Source of the DNA: Clostridiales bacterium | GTDB taxonomy: Bacteria > Bacillota > Clostridia > Lachnospirales > Lachnospiraceae | Direction of reading: 5' to 3' | Length of the DNA stretch: 64,000 nt | Assembly (NCBI GenBank): GCA_021204025.1 | Contig: JAJQAC010000028.1 | Location: forward strand, 1-64,000 | Shown: positions 1,317-15,713 of the stretch, piece after piece | How positions within the stretch are numbered: position 1 is the stretch's first letter | Layout: every line of letters starts with the position of its first letter | Position numbers and translations under genes: made by a program | The notes under the pieces: model-generated | What the model saw: the letters and a program-made list of their open reading frames with translations, nothing else | What the model was told of the DNA's origin: nothing | The model's database searches: none

Positions 1317-2471
1317 TTACTGAATTTCCATGTCATGAGCGAACTGCGAGATCACTTCCATTATTTCTTTATTGGGAATACGAACCCTTCCATTCTCATA
1401 ATTTAAAAATCCATATACTACCATTGCCGAAAAAATCTCATCCCTTGTGCTCAGATGCATTGCCGTAGCAGCAAATTCCTCCACATTCGTCCTGACTGCT
1501 TCTCCCGACACCATCAAAGCAACATCTCGCTTAATCCCATCGATGTCATTGACGATATACGCGGATATCTCTGAATACGGCCCCGTCGTCGTCCAATAGC
1601 TGGACAGACAATTATTCGATAATGCAAGAACCACGGATCTCGGATTATACAGCCTCTTTCCCCCTGCTGTGTAATAACCATCATACCAGATTCTGAGATC
1701 CTCCCTTGAAATGACTGGCTCAGTCTCTTTTTTCCGGTATCTGGCATACAGCAGATCGACTTCCTCGTCTGAAAATCCAAAGTATTCACTGTACTTTGGC
1801 TGCACAGCCATCGTGTACTCCATAAAATGATTGATGCTGGAACCGCTTGAATATTTTGCAATCGGCAGCACACCGGTCATATATGTCAGCGAAACATATC
1901 CGGTTCCTTTGGTCAGCGATGCCAGAAAATTAATAAATTTCTCCCGATCATCCCTGGTTGTGTATTTTTTATGAAAGATACAATCCCACTCATCGAAAAC
2001 AAAGATAAAAGAAGTCCTCGTTTCTTCATGAATCATCCGCAATTCTTCAATCAGCGACGCGCCCTCCCAAAAATCCACATTTGGAAAAGCTTTATGCAAA
2101 TCTCTGCTCAGCATTTTTTCTATCCGACTGATAAAATCATCATAATTGCTGCTTGTATTCGCCGCCTCACTGAAATCAATATACACGACATCATGCTGAT
2201 TCAAATGGGTCTGATAATTGCTGTTATCAGCGATTTTCAAAGAACCAAAGATTCCACTGCCGTCTGAACCCCTGCTGAAAAACGCGCCAATCATCGCCGC
2301 CATCACGGACTTGCCAAATCGCCGCGGTCTTGTAATACAGATGTGATTATTTCCCTGCTCCACAAAAGGGATTAATTCGTTCAGGATTTCACTTTTGTCT
2401 ACAAAATATGGTTTTCTTACCTCACTTTCGTAGAGAGAAAATACTTTTGTGCTGTTTAAGTAATATCCCAT
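1317..2471 (-). CDS. AAA-ATPase-like protein, apparently lacking the C-terminal nuclease domain
   Basis: Protein of 384 residues beginning with the typical AAA-ATPase_like (PF09820) opening: an FVDKSEIL segment and a Walker A variant RPRRFGKSV at about residues 47-55, then FVFDEWD as the Walker B region. Relatives are usually about 500-570 residues and end in a PD-(D/E)XK (DUF1703) domain. Here the protein stops soon after the NREI-like segment (RIPNKEI), so the nuclease part is missing or reduced. These genes are common in accessory DNA of Clostridia and Bacteroidia; their function is not established. The start at 2471 is supported by an AGGAGGTG site just upstream. Truncation may mean a decayed gene. 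Confidence 0.8.
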   Translation of the reverse strand: MGYYLNSTKVFSLYESEVRKPYFVDKSEILNELIPFVEQGNNHICITRPRRFGKSVMAAMIGAFFSRGSDGSGIFGSLKIADNSNYQTHLNQHDVVYIDFSEAANTSSNYDDFISRIEKMLSRDLHKAFPNVDFWEGASLIEELRMIHEETRTSFIFVFDEWDCIFHKKYTTRDDREKFINFLASLTKGTGYVSLTYMTGVLPIAKYSSGSSINHFMEYTMAVQPKYSEYFGFSDEEVDLLYARYRKKETEPVISREDLRIWYDGYYTAGGKRLYNPRSVVLALSNNCLSSYWTTTGPYSEISAYIVNDIDGIKRDVALMVSGEAVRTNVEEFAATAMHLSTRDEIFSAMVVYGFLNYENGRVRIPNKEIMEVISQFAHDMEIQ

Positions 2472-3139
2472 ACGGTCACACCTCCTGAGTTTTCCGTCTG
2501 ATAGTATCCAAAATACCTTGGAAAAATTAGTTTTTCAAATTCTGTTTTCATTCTATCATACTTATTTCATTTTTAACAGCACCATTCTCATCATCATCTC
2601 TTATTCGATTGTCAAAACTTTACCCTACATAATTTATTACACAAATATCTTAAAAAGCCGTGATATTTATTGCAGTTTTTTATAACTTTGTTATAATATT
2701 AGCATACAAATTTTATTATTTGCGTGTAGATAGTAGGTGTAGAATTGCACAAACCACAAATTATAAACGATGTTTTCGATCATGTTGAATGTATTACCAA
2801 AACATCTGAATTTACAACTTACGGACTGAACCACACTGATGTTTACCTTGCCAATAAGTTTGATTAAACGGTGGCTTACTGACCAAATCGCTAAAAAGGG
2901 AATTGTAAACATGGCTTCACTATCGCACAATCTAGACAGATAATTAGTTTTGACAACAATAATGCCATGCAAAAATATAGAAAACATTTCATCGTAAGAT
3001 TGATGCAATTGATTTTGAAACTATACCAAAAACGATTAAAATATTTCTCACAAAACCTTTTTAACCATAACACAGAAAACAAAATCACCAATTAAATGGT
3101 CGGCTACAACTAACACTTGGAATTAAGGAGAAAAAAAGG
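2472..3139 (+). other. AT-rich 668-base intergenic region with promoter and degraded coding traces
   Basis: The stretch lies between the leftward ATPase gene and the rightward restriction operon. A promoter is visible at 2670-2697. Downstream of it, a short open frame at 2730-2867 reads with ordinary amino-acid composition (ending TDVYLANKFD and a stop), and another protein-like stretch (KIDAIDFETIPKTIKIF) lies around 2990-3060 in a different frame with stops between. This pattern suggests a decayed gene once at the head of the operon. I cannot name its family. Confidence 0.45.
2670..2697 (+). promoter_or_regulatory. Candidate promoter of the restriction island
   Basis: TTGCAG and TATAAT are separated by 16 bases on the + strand. 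It is the best sigma-A-type match upstream of the methylase gene, though about 440 bases away, so the transcript would have a long leader carrying the degraded coding traces. Confidence 0.5.
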
Positions 3140-4960
3140 ATGATAAGAACAGACATGATTTCAACTGTTGGTCGAGAATACCTTACTAGCAATATTGAAA
3201 ACGATGAATATAGCTACCCAAAAGCTTTTTCATCTCAATCTTTAACGTTCAATCCTGTTCGAAACAAAGCAGGACGAGCCTATGAGAAAATAGATATTCG
3301 TTTTGTAAAAGACGACATTTCTGTGCTTATTGAAACCAAGCAGAAATTTACAAAAACTGATGAAGAGCAACTCTCAGCATATGTCGAATACGAAAAGGCG
3401 TTAAACGGAAATAAAACAATTGCCATCTTGGCAAATACCGTAAACGATGCAGTGAGAGTATGGCGCGGCGTTGTTTCTGATAGCGACCTAATGCCAAAGG
3501 AAACCGCCTTGCGTACCATGGATGAATACGTAGACTTTTATACATCCAAAATCAATAACAAAGAAAAGGTGATGCAAAACACTTACAAACTCAATGAATT
3601 GCTTCATCGCCATAGCATTCCTGAAAAATTAAGAAGTCAATTTGTGGGGACTTGCTTACTGGCTCTGAAAAATGGTTTAAATTTTTCAGTTTCATCTTTA
3701 ACCGCAGCACAGATCAGAGCAAGAATAAAAGAAATCCTCGAGAATTTGCTGAACTCCGATATTAACAAAGCTGAAAAATTAGCACTTTTAAATCGTAACG
3801 TTTTGGGGGATCAATATATCCGTCAACTTAAAATTGATGCATTTCGAGAAATTCTGAATTTTATTCAGGATAATATACTGCCGTTTATCAATGACAAAAG
3901 CACGTCCGGACAGGATTTATTGAACTTGTTTTTTGTGACCTTTAATAAATATGTGGGAAAATCTGACAAAAACCAAGCGTTTACACCTGACCACATTACA
4001 GATTTTATGGCAAAAATTACAGGTATAAACAAGCATTCCGTTGTATTGGATCCCTGCTGTGGTAGTGGTTCATTCCTCGTGAGAGCAATGACTCAGGCAC
4101 TTGACGATTGTGCGACCGCTACCGAACAAGAGAATGTTAAAAAACATCAGATTTTTGGCATAGAATATGATGAAAATATCTATGGACTTGCAACTACCAA
4201 CATGTTGATTCACTCTGACGGGAACTCAAACATTCGCCAGGGAAGCTGTTTTACACTTGCTGATTGGATAAAGGAAGCAAAACCTAATGTAATTTTAATG
4301 AACCCACCTTACAACGGTCAGCGAATTCATCTGCCAAAAACCTATGTTGATACTTGGGCAAAGGATAAAAAGGAAGATCCGTCTAAGGGGTTATATTTCG
4401 TTAAATATATTGCCGATACCCTTAATTCAGTAAACCAACAGGCAAAATTAGCAGTATTGCTCCCTGTCGCCTGTGCCATCGGAACAAGCGGAGAAATCGC
4501 CCGACTGAAAAAGGAATTATTGCAGGAGAATACACTTGATGCTGTATTTACTCTACCAAACGAAATCTTTTATCCTGGTGCAAGCGCCTCTGCCTGTTGT
4601 ATGGTTTTTAAAATTGGCACAAAACATTCTGATATATCAAATCCTGATACGTTCTTTGGATACTGTAAAGATGACGGTTTCAAAAAGAAAAAGAATATTG
4701 GACGAGTGGAACAAATTGATACTACCACCGGTCAGAGTAAATGGATACAAATCGAACAGCAATGGATTGATCTATATCGTAATCGCCATGCTGTAGATGG
4801 ACTTTCAGCTACTCATAAGGTCACCGGTGAACATGAATGGCTTTGCGAAGCGTATATGAAAACAGATTATACAAAACTTACTGACCAGGATTTTCAGCAG
4901 ACAATCAATGATTATCTTGCTTATCTCGTTAAGGAAGGCTATGTCTATGAAGCTAACTGA
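3140..4960 (+). CDS. BcgI-like type IIB restriction enzyme: fused nuclease and N6-adenine methylase subunit
   Basis: A 606-residue protein combining two activities. The N-terminal part holds a PD-(D/E)XK-type nuclease signature, D52 followed by E65-T-K67. The central part is an N6-adenine methylase with the SAM-binding motif DPCCGSGSF (about residues 305-313) and the catalytic NPPY (about 388-391). This architecture and size match BcgI subunit A (nuclease plus methylase, roughly 640 residues) and not a plain HsdM; the next gene matches subunit B in size. Enzymes of this type methylate adenine and cut DNA on both sides of the recognition site. The start at 3140 follows AAGGAG. Base composition is clearly AT-richer than the genes right of 8 kb, consistent with horizontal transfer. 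Assignment to type IIB is inferred. Confidence 0.85.
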   Translation: MIRTDMISTVGREYLTSNIENDEYSYPKAFSSQSLTFNPVRNKAGRAYEKIDIRFVKDDISVLIETKQKFTKTDEEQLSAYVEYEKALNGNKTIAILANTVNDAVRVWRGVVSDSDLMPKETALRTMDEYVDFYTSKINNKEKVMQNTYKLNELLHRHSIPEKLRSQFVGTCLLALKNGLNFSVSSLTAAQIRARIKEILENLLNSDINKAEKLALLNRNVLGDQYIRQLKIDAFREILNFIQDNILPFINDKSTSGQDLLNLFFVTFNKYVGKSDKNQAFTPDHITDFMAKITGINKHSVVLDPCCGSGSFLVRAMTQALDDCATATEQENVKKHQIFGIEYDENIYGLATTNMLIHSDGNSNIRQGSCFTLADWIKEAKPNVILMNPPYNGQRIHLPKTYVDTWAKDKKEDPSKGLYFVKYIADTLNSVNQQAKLAVLLPVACAIGTSGEIARLKKELLQENTLDAVFTLPNEIFYPGASASACCMVFKIGTKHSDISNPDTFFGYCKDDGFKKKKNIGRVEQIDTTTGQSKWIQIEQQWIDLYRNRHAVDGLSATHKVTGEHEWLCEAYMKTDYTKLTDQDFQQTINDYLAYLVKEGYVYEAN

Positions 4961-5969
4961 TGTAAAATGGCACTCATTTACAATTGGGGAGATTTTTAAT
5001 CTTTACAATGGTAAAGGAATCACCAAAGAAGAAATCGAATGTAACATCGGTGAACTACCGGCTATTCAGAGCGGAGAAGAAAACAATGGGTGTATTGGTA
5101 AAATTGATAGATCTTATTGTATTGAAATGGGTTATACATACACAGATGAGCCCTGTCTAACCGTTGCTCGGACTGGTTCGGCTGGCTTTGTAGCATATCA
5201 ACCAAATGGTTGCGTTGTTGGAGACTCCGCCAAGATCCTAATCTTAAAAGATGGCAATGCCAAAAAATCTTCTGTATATTTGTTTATGCGCACAATACTG
5301 ATGGCCAATCAATATAAATATACTTACGGTAGAAAGGTTACGGAACATAAGTATTTGTCAGAAATTATAATGCTTCCTGCAACCGCGGATAACAACCCTA
5401 ACTGGAAATTCATGGAGCAATATATTAAATCACTCAATCACAAGCCATTAGCAACATCAAATCGGGGGGGGTACGCATCACATACACTTGGAATTGAAAA
5501 TTGGAAAGAATTTCGTATAGGAGATTTGTTTGACGTAAAAAAGGGCAAACGGCTCACCTTAGATGATCAAATCGATGGCGATACCCCCTATATCGGAGCT
5601 ATTGACTCTAATAATGGTGTGGCAAATTATATAGGGCAAATTGCCATTCATGATGGAAACACAATCTCACTGAGTTACAATGGCTCTGTGGGAGAGGCTT
5701 TCTATCAGCCAAAACCTTTCTGGGCAACTGACGACGTAAATGTACTTTATTTCAAAGACAATAATAACATTACTTTCAATAAATATATCGCCTTATTCTT
5801 TTGCACAATTCTTCGTCAAGAAAAATACCGATATTCCTATGGAAGAAAATGGGTGCTTGAAAGCATGCGCTCTACAACAATTAAATTGCCTGTAACCGCA
5901 GACATGAAACCTGATTATGATTTCATGGAAAACTATATAAAATCTCTGCCCTATGGCGACAGAATATAA
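4947..5969 (+). CDS. Restriction-modification specificity subunit with two target recognition domains
   Basis: A 340-residue HsdS/BcgB-like protein. Two related half-repeats are visible: WHSFTIGEIFNLYNGKGI near the start and WKEFRIGDLFDVKKGKRL near residue 185. Each opens a target recognition domain, and each half ends with a Y-S/T-YGRK segment (YKYTYGRKVTEHKYL, YRYSYGRKWVLES). Two domains specify a bipartite DNA site. The length is nearly the same as BcgI subunit B (341). The start at 4947 is preferred over 4941 because AAGGAAGG lies 8 bases upstream; the gene overlaps the methylase by 14 bases, implying translational coupling. A run of eight G at 5464-5471 could be a slippage site altering the second domain. 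Confidence 0.88.
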   Translation: MKLTDVKWHSFTIGEIFNLYNGKGITKEEIECNIGELPAIQSGEENNGCIGKIDRSYCIEMGYTYTDEPCLTVARTGSAGFVAYQPNGCVVGDSAKILILKDGNAKKSSVYLFMRTILMANQYKYTYGRKVTEHKYLSEIIMLPATADNNPNWKFMEQYIKSLNHKPLATSNRGGYASHTLGIENWKEFRIGDLFDVKKGKRLTLDDQIDGDTPYIGAIDSNNGVANYIGQIAIHDGNTISLSYNGSVGEAFYQPKPFWATDDVNVLYFKDNNNITFNKYIALFFCTILRQEKYRYSYGRKWVLESMRSTTIKLPVTADMKPDYDFMENYIKSLPYGDRI

Positions 5970-5982
5970 AGGAGAAAGAGTC

Positions 5983-7134
5983 ATGAAAAAGAAATTTCAT
6001 AATTCACAAGATGAACGATTTGATATCGACGAGCAGGAAACCGAAATCCTGCAGCTTGCAGAAAACACTAATATCGATCAGGATCAAAAAGAACCTATCG
6101 CAAACGAATTTGTGCAAAAAAGAGCTTTATTGGAAAAGACAAAGATTGTCAGACAAACGTGGTCAATTTCCGAAATCTATCAAAAAATCAAAGAAAAAAA
6201 ACTTATACTCGATCCTGATTATCAGCGAAATGATATTTGGCTTAACGACAAGAGAACCGCATTCATCGAATCCCTTTTTATGGGAATTATGATTCCACCT
6301 ATCTACGTGGTTGAAATTCCAAGCGAAGATATCCTAGAAGAGACAAAATATGAAGTAGTTGATGGGAAACAACGATTAACCGCAATATTAGATTTTATAA
6401 AGGGAAACCTTAAACTTAATGAACGCAACCTGGAATACTATGCGGATACTTTTGGAGGAAAAACATTTACTGAAATCCGTGAAATTTCACCAGAGGAATC
6501 TTCCGAAATGCTGTCATCAATACTTGACATCTATGTTATAACTGCAAACTCTCCAGAGTTCACAAAATATGATATTTTTGCGCGACTAAACCGTGGTGCG
6601 GAAAAACTGAAAGTTAATGAAATAAGGAAGGCTATTTATAAATCTAAAGTTACAGGATGGATTACAGATTATATAAAAAATTATAATGAAGAAGAATATA
6701 CCTCTATTTTTTCCAAAAATGATATTCAACGGTATGAAGATTACGGCAGATTTTACCGGTCCTTAGCTTTCTACCTCCGTTCTGATAAAGATAAGGGGAT
6801 CGTTCAAGGATATAACTCCAGACCTCGTGACATGATCAATAATGTACTCCAGGAATTACAAAAGGGGAGCGTAAATATTAATAAGGACAATCTGGATTTG
6901 CTGCTGGCCAGAACTCTTGATCTAAAGAAACAGTTCATGGGAATACCAAATGCCGACTATATCATTGACTCAATTATCCCATTCATTACCGACAACCCGG
7001 ATCTAGACCTTAAAAAAGCAGAAATAGTCTTTTCTGACGAAAACGTCAAAAGAACCCTCGTTAAATCTCCAGCAACTACTCGTAATGTCAACGACCGACT
7101 TAATCTGGTTAAGAAACTAATGCTGGAGGAATGA
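5983..7134 (+). CDS. DUF262 (GmrSD N-terminal-like) protein
   Basis: A 383-residue DUF262 family protein. Seen: DPDYQRNDIWLNDKR and the LFMGIMIPPIYVVE segment, then the signature VDGKQRL (D127-G-K-Q-R131), matching the DGQQR motif that in GmrSD and SspE-like proteins belongs to a ParB/Srx-like NTP-binding fold; FARLNRGAEKLKVNEIR follows. DUF262 proteins commonly take part in defence against foreign DNA, often as nucleotide-dependent nucleases, but the DUF1524 HNH domain of full-length GmrSD is not visible here. GGAG lies 9 bases upstream of the start at 5983, 13 bases after the specificity subunit; the next gene starts immediately after. Its role with the restriction enzyme is inferred from position only. 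Confidence 0.85.
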   Translation: MKKKFHNSQDERFDIDEQETEILQLAENTNIDQDQKEPIANEFVQKRALLEKTKIVRQTWSISEIYQKIKEKKLILDPDYQRNDIWLNDKRTAFIESLFMGIMIPPIYVVEIPSEDILEETKYEVVDGKQRLTAILDFIKGNLKLNERNLEYYADTFGGKTFTEIREISPEESSEMLSSILDIYVITANSPEFTKYDIFARLNRGAEKLKVNEIRKAIYKSKVTGWITDYIKNYNEEEYTSIFSKNDIQRYEDYGRFYRSLAFYLRSDKDKGIVQGYNSRPRDMINNVLQELQKGSVNINKDNLDLLLARTLDLKKQFMGIPNADYIIDSIIPFITDNPDLDLKKAEIVFSDENVKRTLVKSPATTRNVNDRLNLVKKLMLEE

Positions 7135-7135
7135 A

Positions 7136-7768
7136 ATGGACAGTATAAAAAGAATTGATGCCACAACCGTATCGCTAGTATCGTTACAACTAAAAGCTCT
7201 CTTTGTATATGAATTTTTAAAAGAGTATAACGAACTGGAATTAACAATTCGAAATATTTTTGAGAAAAACTTATCCAGCCTCTCTTCGGATGTCATCCAA
7301 CAACTATATTTTTATTATGGAGGGAAAATTGGCAGTTACATCGAATATGAAACGCATTCAACAAAACTGAATACCTTAAGTTATAAATCAAAAGAAAACT
7401 TCAAAGGATTATCTATTAATCAAATTATAAAAATTTTTCAAAAAGATCCTAAGATTACGCCTTTTAATTTTTCAATCAACTCCATTCAATACTCCTTTCA
7501 AGCGTATTCATTTTATGATTGTATTACCCGATTGCTCAATATGCGTAACAAATTAGCTCATGAAGTTGTCAATTATAAATTTAACAATGACGATTTGATC
7601 GAAATGTTAACCCGAGAGCAAATTGCCAAAAAGCCGTTTAAGGCACTACAGAATTACGATATTCAAAAAACAGATGATATGACAATGTACATCGCCAGTA
7701 ACATAATATATATGCAATGTATATTGGAAAAACTGAATGAAACGGCGGAATTCTCTACTCAATTATGA
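7136..7768 (+). CDS. HEPN-domain protein (MAE_28990-like), probable RNase partner of DUF262
   Basis: A 210-residue, mostly alpha-helical protein with an RX4H motif, R137-N-K-L-A-H142, the catalytic signature of HEPN ribonucleases. HEPN proteins of the MAE_28990/MAE_18760 type are known neighbours of DUF262 genes, and the present gene begins one base after the DUF262 stop codon with GGAGG inside the DUF262 end, so the two are translationally coupled. By analogy the pair may be a sensor-effector or toxin-antitoxin unit in which HEPN cuts RNA. The exact HEPN subfamily is uncertain without a profile search. It is the last gene of the island; a strong stem-loop follows. Confidence 0.7.
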   Translation: MDSIKRIDATTVSLVSLQLKALFVYEFLKEYNELELTIRNIFEKNLSSLSSDVIQQLYFYYGGKIGSYIEYETHSTKLNTLSYKSKENFKGLSINQIIKIFQKDPKITPFNFSINSIQYSFQAYSFYDCITRLLNMRNKLAHEVVNYKFNNDDLIEMLTREQIAKKPFKALQNYDIQKTDDMTMYIASNIIYMQCILEKLNETAEFSTQL

Positions 7769-7782
7769 TAACTATAAATTTA

Positions 7783-7818
7783 CAGCGGTGACAAAAATTC
7801 TCCTCTCTGTCACCGCTG
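7783..7818. terminator. Stem-loop between convergent operons
   Basis: An exact 11-bp inverted repeat (CAGCGGTGACA at 7783-7793 and its complement at 7808-7818) stands 14 bases after the HEPN stop codon. No long T tract follows on either strand, but its place between converging genes suggests transcript 3'-end formation. Confidence 0.55.
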
Positions 7819-7962
7819 CCCCTATGCATAGATATATATACATCAACAATCTCTATTTTATATTACATAGTCAAACCACATGAACACATATTTCACTCAT
7901 AAGAGTTTTTCATCACTGTAACTTGCTGACTCTGCGCATATGCCCGCCATCAAATATTTCTC

Positions 7963-9825
7963 TTACGACAGCTGCTCCAGCACCCACTCGACATCATCCG
8001 TCGTCTTGAGGGTCTCCAGTCTCGCCGGATCCTCCAGCAGTGTGCAAAGCTTACTCAGCAGGTCGAGATGCTCATCGCCGATTCCCGCGATGCCAAATAC
8101 CAGTTCGGCCTTCTCCGCGCCGAAGTCAACGCCCTCCGGATACTGGAAGAATACGATACCGGTCTTTTTGACGGTGCCTTTGGCCTGTGTCGTGCCGTGC
8201 GGGATCGCCACGCCCATGCCGATGTAAGTGGATACCAGTCGCTCACGGTCCTGCATTGCGCTCACATAGGTCCCGTCCACATAGCCCAGTTCCTCCAGGA
8301 GCTCGCCGGCCGCCTGAATTGCCTCTTCTTTCGTCACCGGCTTCTGGCCTAGGCGGATGCCGTCCGCGATGATCACCTGCTTTTTCACCGGGACCTCCGG
8401 GATCACGATATCAGTGTTTTCACCGGCCGGGGCCACCGCCGCATCGCCGGTCGTAAGCTGCACGTAGAGCGCGTCCAGCGCCGGATCCGCCAGGAAGTTC
8501 CCGATTGTGATCAACTGCGCCTGCGGAGCGGATTTCTTTGCGCGGGCCGCCAGCGTCGTCTGCACGACCGCGATATCACAGTCGGACGGGATGTTATCCA
8601 CGGAAGTATTCGTCACTGTGATGTCCGGGCGGTTGCCCTTGATCCGGTTGCGGAACTTGGTCGCGCCCATCGCAGACGAACCCATACCGGCGTCACAGGC
8701 AAAGATGATCTTTTTGATCTCCGCGGAGCGCTCAACCGTACCCGGCACGACAACTGTACCCTTCGCTTCCGCCTTCATCGCGGCCATCTCATTCTGCGCT
8801 TCTTCCAGGCTCTTGCCGCCCGCCAGCTTGACAATCGGAGACGCGATAGCAAAGGAGATACCCGCCGCCAGCACGATGCCGATCAGTACCTTGAGCAGAT
8901 CCGATCCCGGCGTCATCATCAGATAGGCGATGATGGAACCCGGAGACGCCGGCCCTACCAGACCACATCCCGTTACATTGAACCAGAAAACTGCCGCCAT
9001 ATTTCCGACAATCGGCGCGATAATGACCAGAGGATTCATCAGCACATACGGGAAATAAATCTCATGGATACCGCCGAGCAGGTGGATAATCACCGCGCCC
9101 GGGGCGGAATCCTTCGTCGCCTTATCCTTGCAGAAGAACATATATGCCAGCAGCACGCCGAGGCCCGGACCGGGGTTCGGTTCCAGCATGTACATGATAG
9201 ACTTGCCGGTCTCCGCCGCCTGCGCCGTGGCGATCGGCGTGAAGATCCCATGGTTGATCGCATTATTTAAGAACAGCACCTTTGCCGGTTCGATGAAGAT
9301 CGCCACCAGCGGCAGCAGGTTATTGACCACCAGGATATTGACGCCTGCGGACAGAATCGCCAGGATACCGCTCATCACCGGGCCAATCACCACATAACCC
9401 AGCATCGCCAGCAGCATGCCGATGATACCGGCGGAGAAGTTATTGATCAGCATCTCAAACCCGGCCGGCATATGGCCATCCATCGCCTCGTCAAATTTCT
9501 TAATACAGGTACCGGCCAGCGGACCGATCAGCATCGCCGCCATCAGCATCGTGATGCTCGTATCGCTCATGATCGGGCCGATGATCGCGATCGCTCCGAC
9601 CACCCGCCCGCGGTCGCCGCCGATCATGCGTCCGCCCGTAGAAGCGATCAGAATCGGGATCAGATAGGTCAGCATCGGACTGACCATACTGTTAAATCCC
9701 TCGTTCGGGAACCAGCCCGTATCGATAAACAGGGCTGCCAGAAAACCAAATGCGATCAGAGCGCCGATATTCGGCATCACCATCGCCGATAAAAATTTAC
9801 CAAAACGTTGTACGTTATTTTTCAC
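7963..9825 (-). CDS. mtlA: PTS mannitol-specific EIICBA permease
   Basis: A 620-residue fused permease that imports and phosphorylates mannitol to mannitol-1-phosphate at the membrane. EIIC occupies about residues 1-340 with many hydrophobic segments and the family sequences GGRMIGGDRGRVVGAIA and NHGIFTP. EIIB follows a charged linker, with the phosphocysteine in IIFACDAGMGSS (about 375). EIIA is at the C-terminus, with the phosphohistidine in GVAIPHGTT (about 540). Size and order match E. coli MtlA. The start codon is GTG at 9825 behind AGGAG; an 8-codon open frame (9849 to 9823) ends in the same GTGA. No mtlD follows: downstream is the convergent island. It is the last gene of the hexitol operon. 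Confidence 0.94.
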   Translation of the reverse strand: MKNNVQRFGKFLSAMVMPNIGALIAFGFLAALFIDTGWFPNEGFNSMVSPMLTYLIPILIASTGGRMIGGDRGRVVGAIAIIGPIMSDTSITMLMAAMLIGPLAGTCIKKFDEAMDGHMPAGFEMLINNFSAGIIGMLLAMLGYVVIGPVMSGILAILSAGVNILVVNNLLPLVAIFIEPAKVLFLNNAINHGIFTPIATAQAAETGKSIMYMLEPNPGPGLGVLLAYMFFCKDKATKDSAPGAVIIHLLGGIHEIYFPYVLMNPLVIIAPIVGNMAAVFWFNVTGCGLVGPASPGSIIAYLMMTPGSDLLKVLIGIVLAAGISFAIASPIVKLAGGKSLEEAQNEMAAMKAEAKGTVVVPGTVERSAEIKKIIFACDAGMGSSAMGATKFRNRIKGNRPDITVTNTSVDNIPSDCDIAVVQTTLAARAKKSAPQAQLITIGNFLADPALDALYVQLTTGDAAVAPAGENTDIVIPEVPVKKQVIIADGIRLGQKPVTKEEAIQAAGELLEELGYVDGTYVSAMQDRERLVSTYIGMGVAIPHGTTQAKGTVKKTGIVFFQYPEGVDFGAEKAELVFGIAGIGDEHLDLLSKLCTLLEDPARLETLKTTDDVEWVLEQLS

Positions 9826-9860
9826 GAACCTCTCTCCTTCTTATTCATCACCTTTTCAGA

Positions 9861-10059
9861 ATATAACTTATCGGAAGTTGCGCCAGCAACTGCCGATAAA
9901 AGGGGCGTTAGCCCCGTCCATCCGATTATGGGGTTCTGCGTCAGCAGGTTCCCATAATATAACTTATCGGAAGTTCCGTAAGGAACTTTCGATAAAAGGC
10001 GCATGCTTTTGCGCCGTCCATCTGATTCTAGGGTTCCGCGAAGCGGGTTCCTAGAATAT
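9861..10059. repeat. Two tandem ~96-base structured repeats before mtlA
   Basis: Copy 1 (9861-9956) and copy 2 (9957-10059) share layout but differ in paired positions. Each holds three hairpins: hairpin A is capped by GCCA in copy 1 and GTAA in copy 2; hairpin B is GGGGC/GCCCC in copy 1 and GGCGCA/TGCGCC in copy 2; hairpin C is TTATGGG/CCCATAA in copy 1 and ATTCTAGG/CCTAGAAT in copy 2, each around GTTC...GGTTC. Differences in stems are compensated, so the folds appear to be under selection. The element lies between the DeoR gene and mtlA in the operon. It matches no RNA family I recognise. Confidence 0.75.
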
Positions 10060-10085
10060 GAGATTGGTTCAGACTGTCAATAAAA

Positions 10086-10847
10086 TTACAGGACTTCAAC
10101 CCCGTATTTCCTGCATTCCTCCAGGAAATTTTCCGGTAGCTTCCCGTCGGAAACCACGATATCCACATCCGCCAGCGTCCCAAAACTGAAGCTGCACCTC
10201 ACATCGATCTTGGACGAATCCATCAGCATGATAACCTGCTCCGACTGCCGGATCGCGGTCTGCTTTAAGATCGCCTCGTCGTTGATACCGCAGGTAAATC
10301 CGGATGTAAAATGAAAGCCAGTAACCCCCAGAAACGCCTGATTAAAATTGACCCGCTCCAGTTCCCGGATCGCGGAGTACCCAAACACACTCTGGCTGTA
10401 GCGGTTCATCCTGCCTCCCGACAGCATCACCGTCGGCCGGGACAGGTTGGCCAGCTCCGTCGCGCAACTGAGCCCTGTCGTATAGATCAGATAGGACTGA
10501 TCCGGGATCTCGCGGGCAAACATCGTCGTCGTACTGCCGGAATCCAGAAAGATCGTCGTATCCGGATGTAAGAGTGAGAGCGCCTTCTGCGCGATCACCT
10601 GCTTCTCCGGGATGCTCCGCACGGACCTCCGGTTGAGGAAATCATCCGTTCCGATGATGACCTGCACCGATTTGGCTCCCCCATGGACGCGCAGGATCTT
10701 TCTCGCTTCATCTAACGTCTTCAGATCCGTGCGCAGTGTCATCTCCGACACCTGCGGAAAGGCTTCTTTGATCTGGGAAAAACTGACGGTTCCCCTGTCA
10801 TTGATCATCTGAACAATCGCATTTCTGCGCATTTCCATAGAATCCAT
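10086..10847 (-). CDS. DeoR-family transcriptional regulator of the hexitol operon
   Basis: A 253-residue DeoR/GlpR-type regulator. The N-terminal winged helix-turn-helix is seen in VSFSQIKEAFPQVSEMTLRTDL, ending with the family's LRVHGGAK. The C-terminal sugar-phosphate-sensing domain holds TIFLDSGSTTTMFAREI and SSKIDVRCSFSFG. Such proteins usually repress sugar operons until a phosphorylated sugar binds. The start at 10847 has AGGAGG upstream (a longer frame reaches into the dehydrogenase gene). It lies inside the operon between the dehydrogenase and mtlA, so it most likely regulates this operon itself; the inducer could be fructose-1-phosphate or mannitol-1-phosphate (inference). Confidence 0.9.
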   Translation of the reverse strand: MDSMEMRRNAIVQMINDRGTVSFSQIKEAFPQVSEMTLRTDLKTLDEARKILRVHGGAKSVQVIIGTDDFLNRRSVRSIPEKQVIAQKALSLLHPDTTIFLDSGSTTTMFAREIPDQSYLIYTTGLSCATELANLSRPTVMLSGGRMNRYSQSVFGYSAIRELERVNFNQAFLGVTGFHFTSGFTCGINDEAILKQTAIRQSEQVIMLMDSSKIDVRCSFSFGTLADVDIVVSDGKLPENFLEECRKYGVEVL

Positions 10848-10900
10848 ATGTTTCCTCCTGTCCGTGTCAGCACGGCTCCGGGCAGAAGCGCCTGACACTG

Positions 10901-12169
10901 TTATTCTTCTATAAAATTCGCCAACAGATATTCCTCTGCCTCCGGGCACCATAACCCGCTGTGCGCGTCCACAATATCAGCCAGGGCAATCAGCCTCTCA
11001 TCACCCTCAGCCTCACCCTTCGCCCGCAGATCGGTCAACGCGGTTAACGACATCGTCAGATGCGTGTAGATCAGCTTCTTACCGCCCGGGATCTTCGGCA
11101 GATTCAGCGTCGTCTCCGCCGCTGCGTCCAAGCCTCCGATATGCGTCACCATGACTGCCGGATTGATACGTCCTTCCGCGGTCAGCCGCAGGGACTCGAT
11201 CATATCGTCAGTATTGCCGCCGGTCGTCCCCATGACGTGAGTAGAATTATAATGTACGTCATAGAAATTCATCGTCGCGCTGAATTTATTATCCGTCGGT
11301 CCGGCAAAGAAGTTCAGGCAGCCGTCACGTCCAAGGATATCGCTGCACTGAGTCACCACCGACGCGACCGGCGCGTAGCACAGCACATCATCATACCCGG
11401 TTCCACCGGAGATCTTCATCAGTTCTGCGACCGGATCCTCATAGCTTCCCGTATTGACAAAGTGAAGATCGATCCCTTCTTTTGCGATCTCCTGCGGCGG
11501 GAAGAGCGCCGCCGCACGGTCCAGACGATCCTGGTTTAAATCCGTCACAACCACCATCGAAGGACGCACATCCCGGTGAAGCGCGTAGGTCAGTGCGCCG
11601 AGGCCCATCGGTCCCGCGCCTGCCATGATCGCCAGCTTGCCGCCCTCCTTGATCCCCATAAAGTGCGTATAAACGCCCATCTGCGTATGATAAGCAGCGT
11701 TAAATGCTCCGATACTGCAGGACATCGGCTCTGCCAGAGATGCCTCGTAATAAGCGCGACCCTTGTACTCCAACAGACACCCCAGTTCCATCACCTCAGC
11801 CGGGATCACGCAATAAGTCGTGTCTCCGCCGAAAAATTCATACGAATATCCCGGGCTCCACATGGTTCCCTTATAGTTTAACGCCGGCTGCAGGGTGAAC
11901 TTCATACCCGGCTTAAAGGTATCCTGATGATTCTTTCCCACTTTTACGATATCGCCGGCAAACTCATGACCCATGATCGCCGGATGCTCCGCCACGTCCT
12001 CATGGACACGTTTATGCGCGGTTCCCAGAATTGCACATTTATATGTCGACATGCAGATGCTGTCCGATACTACCTTAACAAGGATCTCGTCATCCGTGAT
12101 CTCCGGAAGCTCAAATTCCTCCAGTCTCAGATCATACGCCGCGTGAAGCCTTACACCTTTTGCTTTCAT
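10901..12169 (-). CDS. Zinc-type sugar-phosphate dehydrogenase, SorE/YggP-like
   Basis: A 422-residue medium-chain dehydrogenase. The GroES-like part contains SICMSTYKCAILG and the glutamate-containing GHEFAGDIVKVG; the Rossmann part contains GAGPMGLGALTYAL. It resembles L-sorbose-1-phosphate reductase SorE and E. coli YggP, which sits beside a mannitol-type PTS (cmtAB), and not MtlD. SorE oxidises or reduces the carbon next to the phosphorylated one. Acting similarly on mannitol-1-phosphate it would give fructose-1-phosphate, which fits the 1-phosphofructokinase gene just upstream. AAAGGAG supports the start. It lies 68 bases after the kinase gene and 53 bases before the DeoR gene. Family is clear; substrate is inferred. 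Confidence 0.85.
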   Translation of the reverse strand: MKAKGVRLHAAYDLRLEEFELPEITDDEILVKVVSDSICMSTYKCAILGTAHKRVHEDVAEHPAIMGHEFAGDIVKVGKNHQDTFKPGMKFTLQPALNYKGTMWSPGYSYEFFGGDTTYCVIPAEVMELGCLLEYKGRAYYEASLAEPMSCSIGAFNAAYHTQMGVYTHFMGIKEGGKLAIMAGAGPMGLGALTYALHRDVRPSMVVVTDLNQDRLDRAAALFPPQEIAKEGIDLHFVNTGSYEDPVAELMKISGGTGYDDVLCYAPVASVVTQCSDILGRDGCLNFFAGPTDNKFSATMNFYDVHYNSTHVMGTTGGNTDDMIESLRLTAEGRINPAVMVTHIGGLDAAAETTLNLPKIPGGKKLIYTHLTMSLTALTDLRAKGEAEGDERLIALADIVDAHSGLWCPEAEEYLLANFIEE

Positions 12170-12237
12170 AAATAAACTCCTTTCTTATCATAATGAAAAT
12201 CTTATCTGTTTGCAACCGCAAATTGTTGAAATGAAAA

Positions 12238-13170
12238 TTATAACCTCCGGTACTTCACATCCGGCATCAGTCTCTCCACAACCTTATACTCTGCCGCCTG
12301 TGTCCCGCTGCACATCACGTTCGCCGCGCCTGTCGCTGTCGAGAGCCGGACCGTCTCTTCCAGACTCATGCCGGCTTCCTCCGCGACCGCCAGAGCCGCC
12401 ACAACGCTGTCCCCGGCGCCTACCGTGCTGCCCACCGGAACCTTCAGTCCCTGGGCGTAGATCGCCTCGTTTCCGGTCACGTACAGCGCTCCTGCGCCGC
12501 CCATCGAGACCACGATCTTTGCAATCCCGTACTGTGCCATCAGTTCCCTGGCTGTCTCCTCCAGCTCCTCCGGCGTTTCCAGTGTCCGTCCGACCAGTTC
12601 GGACAGTTCATGCTGGTTCGGCTTGATCAGGTACGGCGACGCCGAAAGTCCGCTCTTTAAAAGAGCTCCGTCCGCATCCAGAAAGACCTTGCTTCCCTTT
12701 TCTTCACACGCTTTCGTCCAGTTATAATAAGTGTCCTCCGGCGAGCCTTTCGGCATACTGCCGGAGATCACGACGATGTCCTCCGGCTTCAAACTGTCAA
12801 GCAATTCTGACAAAACCCCATTCAGAATCTCCTCCGATACGACCACTCCCGGTTCATTGATGTCTGTGTTGGTGTGATTCACCGGATCGATAATCTTCAT
12901 ATTCGTCCGAGTCTCTCCCTCCACAAAACAGAACTGCGTCTTCAGTCCCATGTTCCGTAGCGCTGTCTGAATTCCCTGACCAGTATCTCCGCCAAGGATC
13001 CCAACCGCTATGCTCTCCCCGCCCAGCTTGTCGATCACCTTGGAAACATTAATCCCCTTGCCGCCCGGATCCGTACGCATCTTTGTAATGCGGTTGACCG
13101 CGTCGACAGTCAGCGACGGGATCTCGACTGTCTTGTCAAGCGCCGGATTCAGCGTTACCGTGTAAATCAT
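12238..13170 (-). CDS. pfkB: 1-phosphofructokinase family (PfkB) sugar kinase
   Basis: A 310-residue PfkB/ribokinase-fold kinase of the FruK/LacC branch. Seen: the opening MIYTVTLNPALDKTVE, the substrate-binding GGKGINVSKVIDKLG (about residues 36-50), and VGAGDSVVAA (about 247-256) with the catalytic aspartate and anion hole. Members phosphorylate fructose-1-phosphate to fructose-1,6-bisphosphate, or tagatose-6-phosphate in lactose pathways. In this operon with a mannitol permease and a hexitol-phosphate dehydrogenase the fructose-1-phosphate role is the better fit. It is the first gene of the leftward operon, with GGAGGGG ahead of the start and a good promoter about 67-90 bases upstream. Confidence 0.9.
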   Translation of the reverse strand: MIYTVTLNPALDKTVEIPSLTVDAVNRITKMRTDPGGKGINVSKVIDKLGGESIAVGILGGDTGQGIQTALRNMGLKTQFCFVEGETRTNMKIIDPVNHTNTDINEPGVVVSEEILNGVLSELLDSLKPEDIVVISGSMPKGSPEDTYYNWTKACEEKGSKVFLDADGALLKSGLSASPYLIKPNQHELSELVGRTLETPEELEETARELMAQYGIAKIVVSMGGAGALYVTGNEAIYAQGLKVPVGSTVGAGDSVVAALAVAEEAGMSLEETVRLSTATGAANVMCSGTQAAEYKVVERLMPDVKYRRL

Positions 13171-13485
13171 GTCACCCCTCCTTATGATTTTTGTTTAAAA
13201 AGTTTGCTAACTTTTGTTTCAACAGCTTGTGATGATAGAATATCACAATTTCGGCAAATGTCAAGACTTTTTCTGTAAAAAATTTTCGAAATTATAATTC
13301 TTTTGTTTTTGGAATAAAAGTTTTCGCAGTCGTCACTGTTCCGCAGGCTGCGCAGGATCTGTGTGGAAATTATGCGAAATTTCTTATGGAATTTATTGCA
13401 GAACAACTGGTATGTGCCGGTCTGACTGATCTGAGCAAAAAGAGATTCCATTGAAAATCTATCTGTTTTTCAATGGAATCCCTTT
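13171..13485 (-). other. Intergenic region holding the hexitol operon promoter
   Basis: The 315 bases contain the leftward promoter at 13237-13264 and, between it and the start codon, repeated AAC/AAA-rich short motifs (AACAAAAG, TAAACAAAA on the minus strand) that could be DeoR-type operator half-sites. The part from 13290 to 13485 shows no supported gene. Confidence 0.5.
13237..13264 (-). promoter_or_regulatory. Promoter of the hexitol operon
   Basis: On the minus strand TTGACA (13264-13259) and TATTCT (13242-13237) are 16 bases apart, upstream of the 1-phosphofructokinase gene. The -35 box is a consensus match. Confidence 0.7.
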
Positions 13486-13974
13486 TTATTTCGCGCAATA
13501 CTTTTTCAGCATCCAGATCAGATACAGCGGCAGACTGATCGTGTCCGTCTTTCCAACAGTATTGTCCCCCACATTTTTCAGAGACAATTTAAAACCGATT
13601 TCCGGATTATATTTTTTGCAATACTCCTGATAACTTTTTGCCCGCGTGTGAATCTGGGCTTTCGCCTCTACCGGAATGATTCTATCCTCGTATTCAAACA
13701 GGAAATCCAACTCTGCCGTGTTTCCTGACCGCCAAAAGTAGGGATGGATTTCCTGGGTGATCAGTTCCGTCAATACATAATTTTCCGTAAAAGCTCCCTT
13801 AAAATTGCGATACAAATCCGAATCCTCCAGAATTGTCCGCCAAGAAACACCAGATTTTTTCCTTAAGAGGCCAACATCTGACATATACACCTTAAAATAT
13901 GTCGCATTCGCCTGAAAGGATAACGGTAATTCCGCATTTGACACCATTTCCAGCCGATAGATCAGACCCGCATA
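13486..13974 (-). pseudogene. C-terminal remnant of an AAA-ATPase with DUF4143 domain
   Basis: The frame begins inside the DUF4143 region (AGLIYRLEMVSNAELPLS...) and continues to a normal-looking end, including FKVYMSDVGLL, GAFTENYVLTEL and the nuclease-like FWRSGNTAELDFLFE...IPVEAKA. Full proteins of this family are about 400 residues with an N-terminal Walker ATPase; here the first two thirds are missing and the homology runs up to the stop codon of the trehalose-6-phosphate hydrolase gene. The in-frame ATG at 13947 has no good ribosome-binding site. It is best read as a 5'-truncated relic left by insertion or deletion next to the trehalose operon. Confidence 0.8.
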
Positions 13975-13990
13975 GACTGGATGCCATTTC

Positions 13991-15634
13991 TTATCGGTAC
14001 ATCACAACAAGCTCATACGGTCTCAAAGTCAGTCTGCCATCTGTCATCTCAGGTTCTTCTTTATAATTTCCCAGAATCTTCTGATAACCGCCGCTCGAGA
14101 ACATTTCGGAAACGGTACGAACGGTACCAGACAGATTCCCATATACCAAAAGTTCCTCCTCTCCCAGATTTCTGCGATACGCAATCACCCGATCATCTGC
14201 TTCCTCGAGAAAGCAAATCGTACCCTCAGATATGATCTTCATTTCCTTTCGCAACGTAATCAGCTTCTTGTAGAACGTAAGAACCGATTCGCTGTCCCCC
14301 ATCTGTGACTGCACATGGATGGTTTCTGCGTTATCAGCCATCGGAATCCACGGCGCACCATCCGAAAATCCTCCGTTTTTCTCCCCATTCCACTGCATCG
14401 GAGACCGGCCGTTATCTCTCGAGCGGGCAGCCAGCACTTCCAAAGCCTCTACCCCCGATTTCCCCTGCTCCCGGAGAATTTGATAATAATTCAGACTCTC
14501 CACGTCCCGATATTGCTCAATTGACGCAAAATGTGGATTTGTCATGCCAATTTCCTCGCCCTGATAGACATAAGGCGTTCCGCGCATCAGATGGATCATG
14601 CCCGCCAGCATCATCGCGGACTGTTTCCAGTATCTTCCTTCATCGCCAAACCGGGATACGGTACGCGGCTGATCATGATTACACAAAAAGAGTGCACTCC
14701 AGCCATTTCCGATCTGCATCCCTTCCTGCCATTCCCGGAACAACTCCTTTAATCTTCGATAATCTGGTTCCATGAGTTCCCATTTATTTCCATCCTTATA
14801 ATCTACTTTAAGATGGTGGAAATGAAAGCACATCGAAAGTTCCTGTTCATCTGGATTCGAATAGCCAACACAGTTTTTCAACGTTGTCGAAGACATCTCT
14901 CCGACTGTCACACAATCTCCGATATCCGCATCCCGTACCAGTTCCTTCAGATATTCATGCACTTTGGGGCCATCCGAATAAAATCTTCTTCCGTCTCCCT
15001 CAAAATCATCCTCCCAGACTTCCGGTTTCGAGATCAGATTCACCACATCAAAACGGAACCCCTGGATCCCTTTCGCCTTCCAGAAACGCAAAACATCCTT
15101 TAACTCTTCCCTCACCCGCGGGTTTTCCCAATTCAGATCTGCCTGCGTCACATCAAACAGATGAAGATACCACTTGCCGAGCCCCGGCACATATTCCCAG
15201 ACAGGTCCTCCAAATTTGGATACCCAGTTTGTCGGCATTTTTTCCGGACTTTCTTCTTTAAAGATATAGTAATCCTGATATTCCTTCTCTCCTGCCAGCG
15301 CGCGCTGAAACCACTCATGCGAAGTCGATGTATGGTTAAACACCATATCCAGCATGATTCCCATGCCTCTCTTTCTGCTCTCGCTGATCAGTTCCTCCAT
15401 ATCTGCCATCGTACCATATCTGGGATCGATGCGGCGGTAATCCGCCACATCGTATCCATTGTCATTCTGCGGTGAGATAAATACCGGAGTCAGCCACAGA
15501 TAATCCACGCCCAGATCTTTCAGATAATCCAGTCTCCGGATGATCCCCCGCAAATCACCGATTCCATCTCCATCGGAGTCCTGAAACGATTTCGGATAAA
15601 TCTGATATACTACCTTATCTCTGAATTCTGTCAT
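13991..15634 (-). CDS. treC: Alpha,alpha-phosphotrehalase (trehalose-6-phosphate hydrolase)
   Basis: A 547-residue GH13 enzyme that splits trehalose-6-phosphate into glucose and glucose-6-phosphate in the cytosol. Seen: VVYQIYPKSFQDSDGDGIGDL, conserved region I LDMVFNHTS, region II GFRFDVVNLI with the nucleophile aspartate, the TreC-typical EGDGRRFYSDGP, the acid/base region TVGEMS, and FLCNHDQPR. The start at 15634 is preferred because GGAG lies just upstream; 15646 is an in-frame alternative, and the frame runs up to 15724. It follows treB within about 80 bases in a leftward operon under TreR control. Oligo-1,6-glucosidases are close relatives, but the PTS neighbour decides. Confidence 0.93.
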   Translation of the reverse strand: MTEFRDKVVYQIYPKSFQDSDGDGIGDLRGIIRRLDYLKDLGVDYLWLTPVFISPQNDNGYDVADYRRIDPRYGTMADMEELISESRKRGMGIMLDMVFNHTSTSHEWFQRALAGEKEYQDYYIFKEESPEKMPTNWVSKFGGPVWEYVPGLGKWYLHLFDVTQADLNWENPRVREELKDVLRFWKAKGIQGFRFDVVNLISKPEVWEDDFEGDGRRFYSDGPKVHEYLKELVRDADIGDCVTVGEMSSTTLKNCVGYSNPDEQELSMCFHFHHLKVDYKDGNKWELMEPDYRRLKELFREWQEGMQIGNGWSALFLCNHDQPRTVSRFGDEGRYWKQSAMMLAGMIHLMRGTPYVYQGEEIGMTNPHFASIEQYRDVESLNYYQILREQGKSGVEALEVLAARSRDNGRSPMQWNGEKNGGFSDGAPWIPMADNAETIHVQSQMGDSESVLTFYKKLITLRKEMKIISEGTICFLEEADDRVIAYRRNLGEEELLVYGNLSGTVRTVSEMFSSGGYQKILGNYKEEPEMTDGRLTLRPYELVVMYR

Positions 15635-15713
15635 TTTACTCTCCATTCTACCACCCTCTGTCGAAGGCACGAACAGCAGTAATGAAAATCTGCTGTTCCC
15701 ACCACGTTTCCTG

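Follow-up and report, generated by a model that had tools for sequence, protein, structure and literature searches.

The HEPN ribonuclease PrrC is the model of an RNase that acts once restriction has been disabled, and a 2013 survey proposed a PrrC-like second line for HEPN genes linked to restriction systems (Anantharaman et al., PMC3710099). PARIS represents a similar idea (PMC9122126). The survey lists the MAE_28990 HEPN family in an operon with ParB nuclease and DNA methylase genes (PMC3710099, Table 1), and lists Abi2 as a HEPN family embedded in restriction-modification operons. DUF262 proteins respond to modified DNA in GmrSD, BrxU and SspE, serve as NTPase-type sensors in BrxU and SspE, and occur without a DUF1524 domain in PD-T4-2, Menshen and Dazbog; BrxU complements BREX (PMC10952713). 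The stretch described here, called the window, is 64,000 nucleotides of contig JAJQAC010000028.1 from a Clostridiales bacterium of the Lachnospiraceae (assembly GCA_021204025.1). It contains a four-gene operon in which a BcgI-like restriction-modification pair, A and S, is followed by genes for a DUF262 protein and a divergent HEPN-like protein (Table 1).

The original prediction, made from the sequence alone, placed a four-gene operon at this position. The four open reading frames (ORFs) are present on the plus strand and, when later starts are used, overlap or are separated by 13 base pairs (bp) or less. The named motifs are all found: D52, E65-T-K67, DPCCGSG at 304 and NPPY at 388 in A, DGKQR at 127 in the DUF262 protein and R137-x4-H142 in the HEPN protein. 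Pfam supports the identities of the first three genes. A matches N6_Mtase (2.4e-33) and, in PADLOC, a type IIG restriction enzyme-methyltransferase (8.2e-54). It carries nuclease and N6-methylase sequences in one polypeptide; the nuclease part has no Pfam match and is recognised by motif and alignment, with E65 and K67 invariant in all seven aligned N-terminal domains. S matches Methylase_S in two stretches (1.5e-42) and the PADLOC type II specificity profile (1.1e-53). As judged from these matches, A with a separate S that has two target recognition domains (TRDs) is a BcgI-like type IIB layout. The term refers to how BcgI is described, with nuclease and methylase sequences in A and a separate specificity subunit (PMC1892151), and not to a comparison with the BcgI sequence. 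The window operon differs from the BcgI layout by its two extra genes.

The third protein matches PF03235 (GmrSD_N/DUF262) at 9.2e-25. Its best PADLOC match is NsnA (6.6e-49), and PD-T4-2_A is a weaker one (1.1e-25). None of the five proteins scanned has a Pfam match to the DUF1524 nuclease domain at E values up to 1, and a sequence search of the Protein Data Bank (PDB) with the DUF262 protein returns no match at 0.001. The segment AAAGGAGA directly follows the S stop codon in the window and is also present in L002, a related locus (loci are numbered with L).

The fourth protein is probably a divergent HEPN-like protein and a probable ribonuclease, on the basis of its motif and of profile comparison. 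R137, N138 and H142 are invariant in all five close HEPN proteins. In hhalign, the five-member HEPN profile aligns through R-x4-H (score 36.8, probability 62.6%) with one built from nine HEPN proteins encoded in DUF262 operons, of which six carry a MAE_28990/MAE_18760 family annotation. A rerun gives 36.4, compared with at most 19.9 in 100 column shuffles and 13.7 for the reversed profile. The nine-HEPN profile also matches two RiboL-PSP-type HEPN proteins (score 31.2), of which that of L039 passes its own Pfam cut-off. The five-member profile has no match to the two-sequence RiboL-PSP-type profile (score 13.9). In Pfam, the window protein matches HEPN_MAE_28990 (PF18737) at 0.0012, with 19.5 bits against a gathering score of 26.8. 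The predicted HEPN assignment is thus upheld by motif and profile and is weaker than first stated, as the Pfam match falls under the curated cut-off. The protein has no match at 1e-5 among plasmids and phages, and in the PDB sequence search it returns only HepS at E=0.74, which was not used. One further match (L004, E=5e-4) lies inside an MreB-like gene, so named by eye, and was rejected as chance. In virus contigs there are no confirmed relatives for the DUF262 alignment, the HEPN alignment or A.

The DUF262 and HEPN genes resemble parts of several described systems. In PrrC with EcoprrI, a HEPN RNase lies beside a restriction system as a second line (PMC3710099), and a similar arrangement is proposed by analogy for the window. 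PrrC is described there as a single ABC-ATPase-HEPN protein beside a type Ic system, whereas the window has DUF262 in the place of the ATPase; membership in PrrC/RloC was rejected, as none of the four operon proteins has an ABC-ATPase match. GmrSD and BrxU, of type IV, have DUF262 with a DG(K/Q)QR motif, as in the window, and were rejected because a DUF1524/HNH nuclease was not found in the window proteins. PD-T4-2 combines DUF262 without DUF1524 with a HEPN domain, which is also the case here; no restriction enzyme is named for it in the description at hand (PMC10952713). Membership was rejected because the window HEPN has no PADLOC match at E values up to 1, which is a weak test, since the HEPN proteins of L039, L047 and L059 likewise have none at 1e-5. 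Menshen is suggested by the best PADLOC match, as NsnA, NsnB and NsnC are presumably the Menshen components. It was rejected because the NsnA-like gene is flanked by S and HEPN, neither of which matches NsnB or NsnC; L036 has both NsnB and NsnC. Elsewhere in the window's own genome (L044:6044-9263, G000:C72), a second, distant DUF262 gene is followed by what looks by eye like a Menshen-type ATPase gene. The MAE_28990-family operons likewise have a DUF262/ParB-like gene, HEPN and a DNA methylase side by side (PMC3710099). In the window, the methylase is within a BcgI-like enzyme and the HEPN is below the family's cut-off.

The HEPN and DUF262 protein searches cover 1626 genome slots, repeats included, and one scan of genome contigs. 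Within the family, only the HEPN protein served as the query, and that search may therefore have missed distant members. Five genomes have a close DUF262-HEPN pair: that of the window, L002 (Blautia sp. MSJ-9), L005 (G391), L008 (G470) and L012 (G1021). In L002 and L005, a methylase with one fused Methylase_S domain (one TRD) is followed by DUF262 and then HEPN. The order of restriction gene, DUF262 and HEPN thus recurs in two other Lachnospiraceae loci. In L012, DUF262 and HEPN are followed 14 bp later by an HSDR_N-methylase protein. In L008, the gene 224 bp further on encodes a methylase without a Pfam nuclease match. For both L008 and L012, the TRD parts were identified by eye, as Pfam gave no Methylase_S match. 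A methylase enzyme therefore lies within 225 bp of the pair in all five close loci, in either gene order, and the predicted link between DUF262-HEPN and methylase enzymes holds in each.

All 18 distant DUF262 matches (L013, L014 and L035-L050) serve as a control. Within this set, L049 and L050 are broken, L050 also runs into the end of its contig, and L040, L042 and L043 appear to be the same locus from three relatives. A HEPN companion is present in 5 of 5 close DUF262 loci and 2 of 18 distant ones (L039, of RiboL-PSP type, and L047; Fisher p=0.0006). Of the 5 close loci, all have a methylase among the four flanking ORFs on either side, as do 8 of 18 distant ones (L013, L036, L039, L041, L045, L046, L047 and L050; p=0.038). 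Not every control neighbour was scanned with Pfam, so the control counts are lower bounds; the extra neighbours that were scanned have no further HEPN or DNA-methylase matches. Other companions of distant DUF262 genes are NsnB and NsnC (L036) and AAA ATPases (L035 and L048; L044 by eye).

Several of the distant loci have arrangements of their own. In L038:5073-7182 and L041:5945-8148, the gene beside DUF262 encodes a protein with weak similarity to SIR2, which may represent a further effector pairing of DUF262. L039:176-8347 contains, in a row, type III genes (N6/N4 methylase and ResIII), a DUF1016 (YhcG) nuclease gene, DUF262 and the RiboL-PSP-type HEPN gene. L045:4020-7174 contains DUF262, a gene for a 190-residue protein without a Pfam match and an N6-methylase gene in a row.

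The DUF262-HEPN pair and the enzyme beside it have different relationships. Between the window and the other four close loci, DUF262 is 53-69% identical, HEPN 30-56% and A 21-36%; A of L002 and A of L005 share 58% identity. In the A tree, the window forms a clade with L068 and L069, both of which are without the pair, with full bootstrap support. A clade of the window, L002 and L005 is rejected in this tree (approximately unbiased (AU) test, p=0.0006). In the DUF262 tree, the five close members form one starred clade (100/99), where the program warns that long branches meet. The simplest account, supported by these trees, is that the DUF262-HEPN module changed partners, and it looks like a portable add-on. 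The strongly unequal divergence of DUF262 and A makes it less likely that L068 and L069 lost the module. TRD identity among the window, L002 and L005 is 32-42% (27-48% among all eight TRDs compared), whereas their DUF262 proteins are 59-69% identical. DUF262 is therefore unlikely to read the enzyme's own site directly.

The A protein was sought in 250 genomes of the same family, and seven have a match at 1e-30, the window included. The other six loci (L068-L073) have A and S and no match to the window-clade DUF262 or HEPN profiles in any frame. Their A proteins are 84-85% (L068), 55% (L069) and 24-31% (L070-L073) identical to that of the window. In L070, S is split over two ORFs and the record ends 678 bp later. 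A/S thus occurs without the module, and the genes that follow S vary. The original prediction would have been refuted by DUF262-HEPN occurring mostly alone or with unrelated systems and by a restriction pair fully active without it; A/S is found without the pair in all six other loci, yet no close pair is found alone.

The operon may be a two-tier anti-phage system in which restriction is backed by a HEPN RNase under DUF262 control that arrests infected cells, a tentative reading held with a little less than even confidence. In the first tier, as its anatomy suggests, A with S would methylate the cell's own sites and cut unmethylated foreign DNA. In the second, DUF262 would be an NTP-binding sensor that keeps HEPN inactive and releases it when the state of the DNA signals that the first tier has failed. 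The freed HEPN would then cut RNA and arrest the infected cell. As the module has apparently moved between methylase enzymes of different lineages and TRDs, the signal is more likely to be generic than a contact tailored to one enzyme. Candidate generic signals are DNA that is uncut or unusual, an enzyme that has stalled or been inhibited, and DNA ends.

Several observations weigh against the two-tier reading. The window HEPN is below the Pfam gathering score, and only one of the five clade members matches the family at all. There are only five close loci, of which three come from a single family, and treating related loci as independent makes the p values approximate. A methylase is also near 8 of 18 distant DUF262 genes, so part of the linkage belongs to DUF262 genes in general. 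A pairing of L002 with L005 is not rejected by the DUF262 tree on its own (AU p=0.065). In L072:2679-9365, GajA and GajB (Gabija) start 24 bp after the S gene of a BcgI-like A/S pair, and in L069:6239-10848, S is followed on the same strand, after 649 bp, by an Abi_2 gene. The region after S may therefore simply collect defence genes. Taken together, the operon as first observed is confirmed, and its interpretation as a composite defence is partly supported.

The independence of DUF262 from the local site also fits another account, possible and on balance unlikely, in which DUF262-HEPN is an independent type IV-like module. Here DUF262 would read modifications in foreign DNA, and HEPN would replace the DNase. 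Such a module would complement A/S by catching phages whose modified DNA A/S is unable to cut. The response of DUF262 proteins to modified DNA in GmrSD, BrxU and SspE, and the complementing of BREX by BrxU (PMC10952713), are consistent with this account, as are DUF262 proteins that do not track the TRDs of the window, L002 and L005. It leaves unexplained the L008 methylase, in which no nuclease domain is found, and the methylase beside pairs that have no annotated restriction enzyme (L051-L055, L057 and L058).

These last pairs belong to a more distant clade. The L047 HEPN protein, used as a query, matches 16 plasmid and 11 phage records. Thirteen of the 27 were examined, and the remaining 14 have the same match figures as an examined one. 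L097 is cut at the HEPN gene and was left out; the other 12 and L047 are assessable. DUF262, a MAE_28990-type HEPN and a C5 DNA methylase form a recurrent three-gene unit on plasmids, in two phages and on a genome contig, in several gene orders. The C5-methylase is beside the pair in 11 of the 13 assessable loci (L047, L051-L055, L057, L058 and L094-L096), in several orientations. It is in two ORFs in L051, and its match is weak in L094 (1.6e-12). One exception, L060:4383-6206, is a small complete Pedobacter plasmid that carries DUF262 and a HEPN gene with a frameshift, and has no methylase match. The other, L056, has an open HEPN gene, followed by a transposase fragment, and no methylase was found within 6 kb. 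L059, of RiboL-PSP type, is also without a methylase match. In L051-L055, L057 and L058, the genes directly beside the pair include no annotated restriction enzyme, although many phage genes there are labelled only 'hypothetical' and L057 has a helicase gene upstream. Among seven loci, the C5-methylase is 45-59% identical (mean 52%), DUF262 33-62% (43%) and HEPN 20-40% (25%). The divergence of DUF262 is not correlated with that of the C5-methylase in these loci (Spearman -0.12, equalled or exceeded in 3636 of 5040 permutations). L097:1-764, at the end of a Hymenobacter plasmid record, has a HEPN gene beside a very short patch repair endonuclease gene.

The recurrence of this unit bears on an improbable account, in which the methylase supplies a self mark, DUF262 detects unmarked DNA and HEPN is the RNA-cutting arm of restriction. 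The C5-methylase beside 11 of 13 distant pairs, its highest mean identity in the unit, the frameshifted HEPN gene of the plasmid that lacks a methylase and the nuclease-less appearance of the L008 methylase all point in this direction. Against this, the TRDs of the window clade vary without a matching variation in DUF262, which makes it unlikely that DUF262 itself reads each site. The open HEPN gene of L056 without a nearby methylase, though a transposase fragment follows it, and the uncorrelated divergence of DUF262 and C5-methylase also argue against it. An uncoupled passenger or addiction cassette, in which DUF262-HEPN would travel with the island or stabilise it in the manner of a toxin-antitoxin pair, is held to be just as improbable: it fits the variety of genes after S (no recognised defence gene, DUF262-HEPN, Gabija, or Abi_2 further on), but not the methylase adjoining all five close pairs in either order or the S-DUF262 junction that is alike in the window and L002.

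The operon is part of an island of about 5.3 kb; a relative, L091 (G1113), has no such island at the same place. In L091, the flanking dehydrogenase and phosphotransferase system (PTS) genes are about 330 bp apart, with a 64-bp stretch between them that corresponds to window positions 2533-2596. The G1113 PTS protein is 99% identical to that of the window, and G1113 has no DUF262 match at 1e-20. Among 24 same-genus genomes, one, the window's own, has a close DUF262, and one other has a distant match. The shortened AAA-ATPase gene noted beside the operon is present, and was rejected as part of the unit because the ancestral 64-bp stretch separates it from the island. As this stretch is kept in L091, the AAA-ATPase (about 1305-2532) and the restriction island are separate insertions or replacements. 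A short ATPase-like C-terminal fragment is seen by eye at window positions 13486-13947. The block is AT-rich, as predicted; GC content in 500-base steps is 0.31-0.41 over 3001-8000, 0.52-0.61 directly to the right (8001-13000) and 0.42-0.49 over 13001-16000. The operon was also predicted to end at a stem-loop. The stem-loop is there, but lacks a run of T and is not a typical terminator, and no terminator-like site is listed on the plus strand.

Table 1. Features of the operon and its surroundings in the window.
Feature	Position	Strand	Description
A	3140..4960	+	606 aa; BcgI-like PD-(D/E)XK-type nuclease motif and N6-adenine DNA methylase
S specificity subunit, two TRDs	4947..5969	+	340 aa from 4947; ORF opens at 4908
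DUF262 (GmrSD_N) protein	5983..7134	+	ORF opens at 5953; no DUF1524/HNH match
Divergent HEPN-like protein	7136..7768	+	R137-x4-H142; probable ribonuclease
Stem-loop	7783..7818	+	11-bp perfect stem, 14-nt loop, 3' of last gene, no T run
Island not in relative L091	2597..7954		right edge between about 7860 (by eye) and 7954 (alignment)
Shortened AAA-ATPase gene	1317-2471		beside dehydrogenase gene

The linkage of HEPN to methylases and the idea of HEPN as a second line are already known from the 2013 survey (PMC3710099); exchange of modules between enzymes is not known from the descriptions of the MAE_28990 operons cited here. Among open full-text PMC papers, none was found that names BcgI with a DUF262-HEPN module; the original PD-T4-2 and Menshen papers are outside this comparison. 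What appears to be new is the BcgI-like four-gene form, the pair of A/S loci with and without the module, and the evidence for movement of the module between enzymes. A broader reading, which is doubtful, is that DUF262-HEPN is a mobile RNA-cutting arm fitted to different DNA methylases, where the methylase defines self and DUF262 reads the failure of marking. If this is true, there would be restriction systems that punish by RNA cleavage rather than DNA cleavage. The genes found after S suggest that various second-line modules can be accommodated downstream of a type IIB specificity gene. The window and L068 form a natural experiment, in which nearly the same restriction gene occurs with and without the RNase module. 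Close relatives of the module also lie beside different methylase enzymes, one of them without a detected nuclease domain. With this pair of loci and these varied methylase partners, the 2013 proposal on the contribution of HEPN proteins to restriction becomes directly testable.

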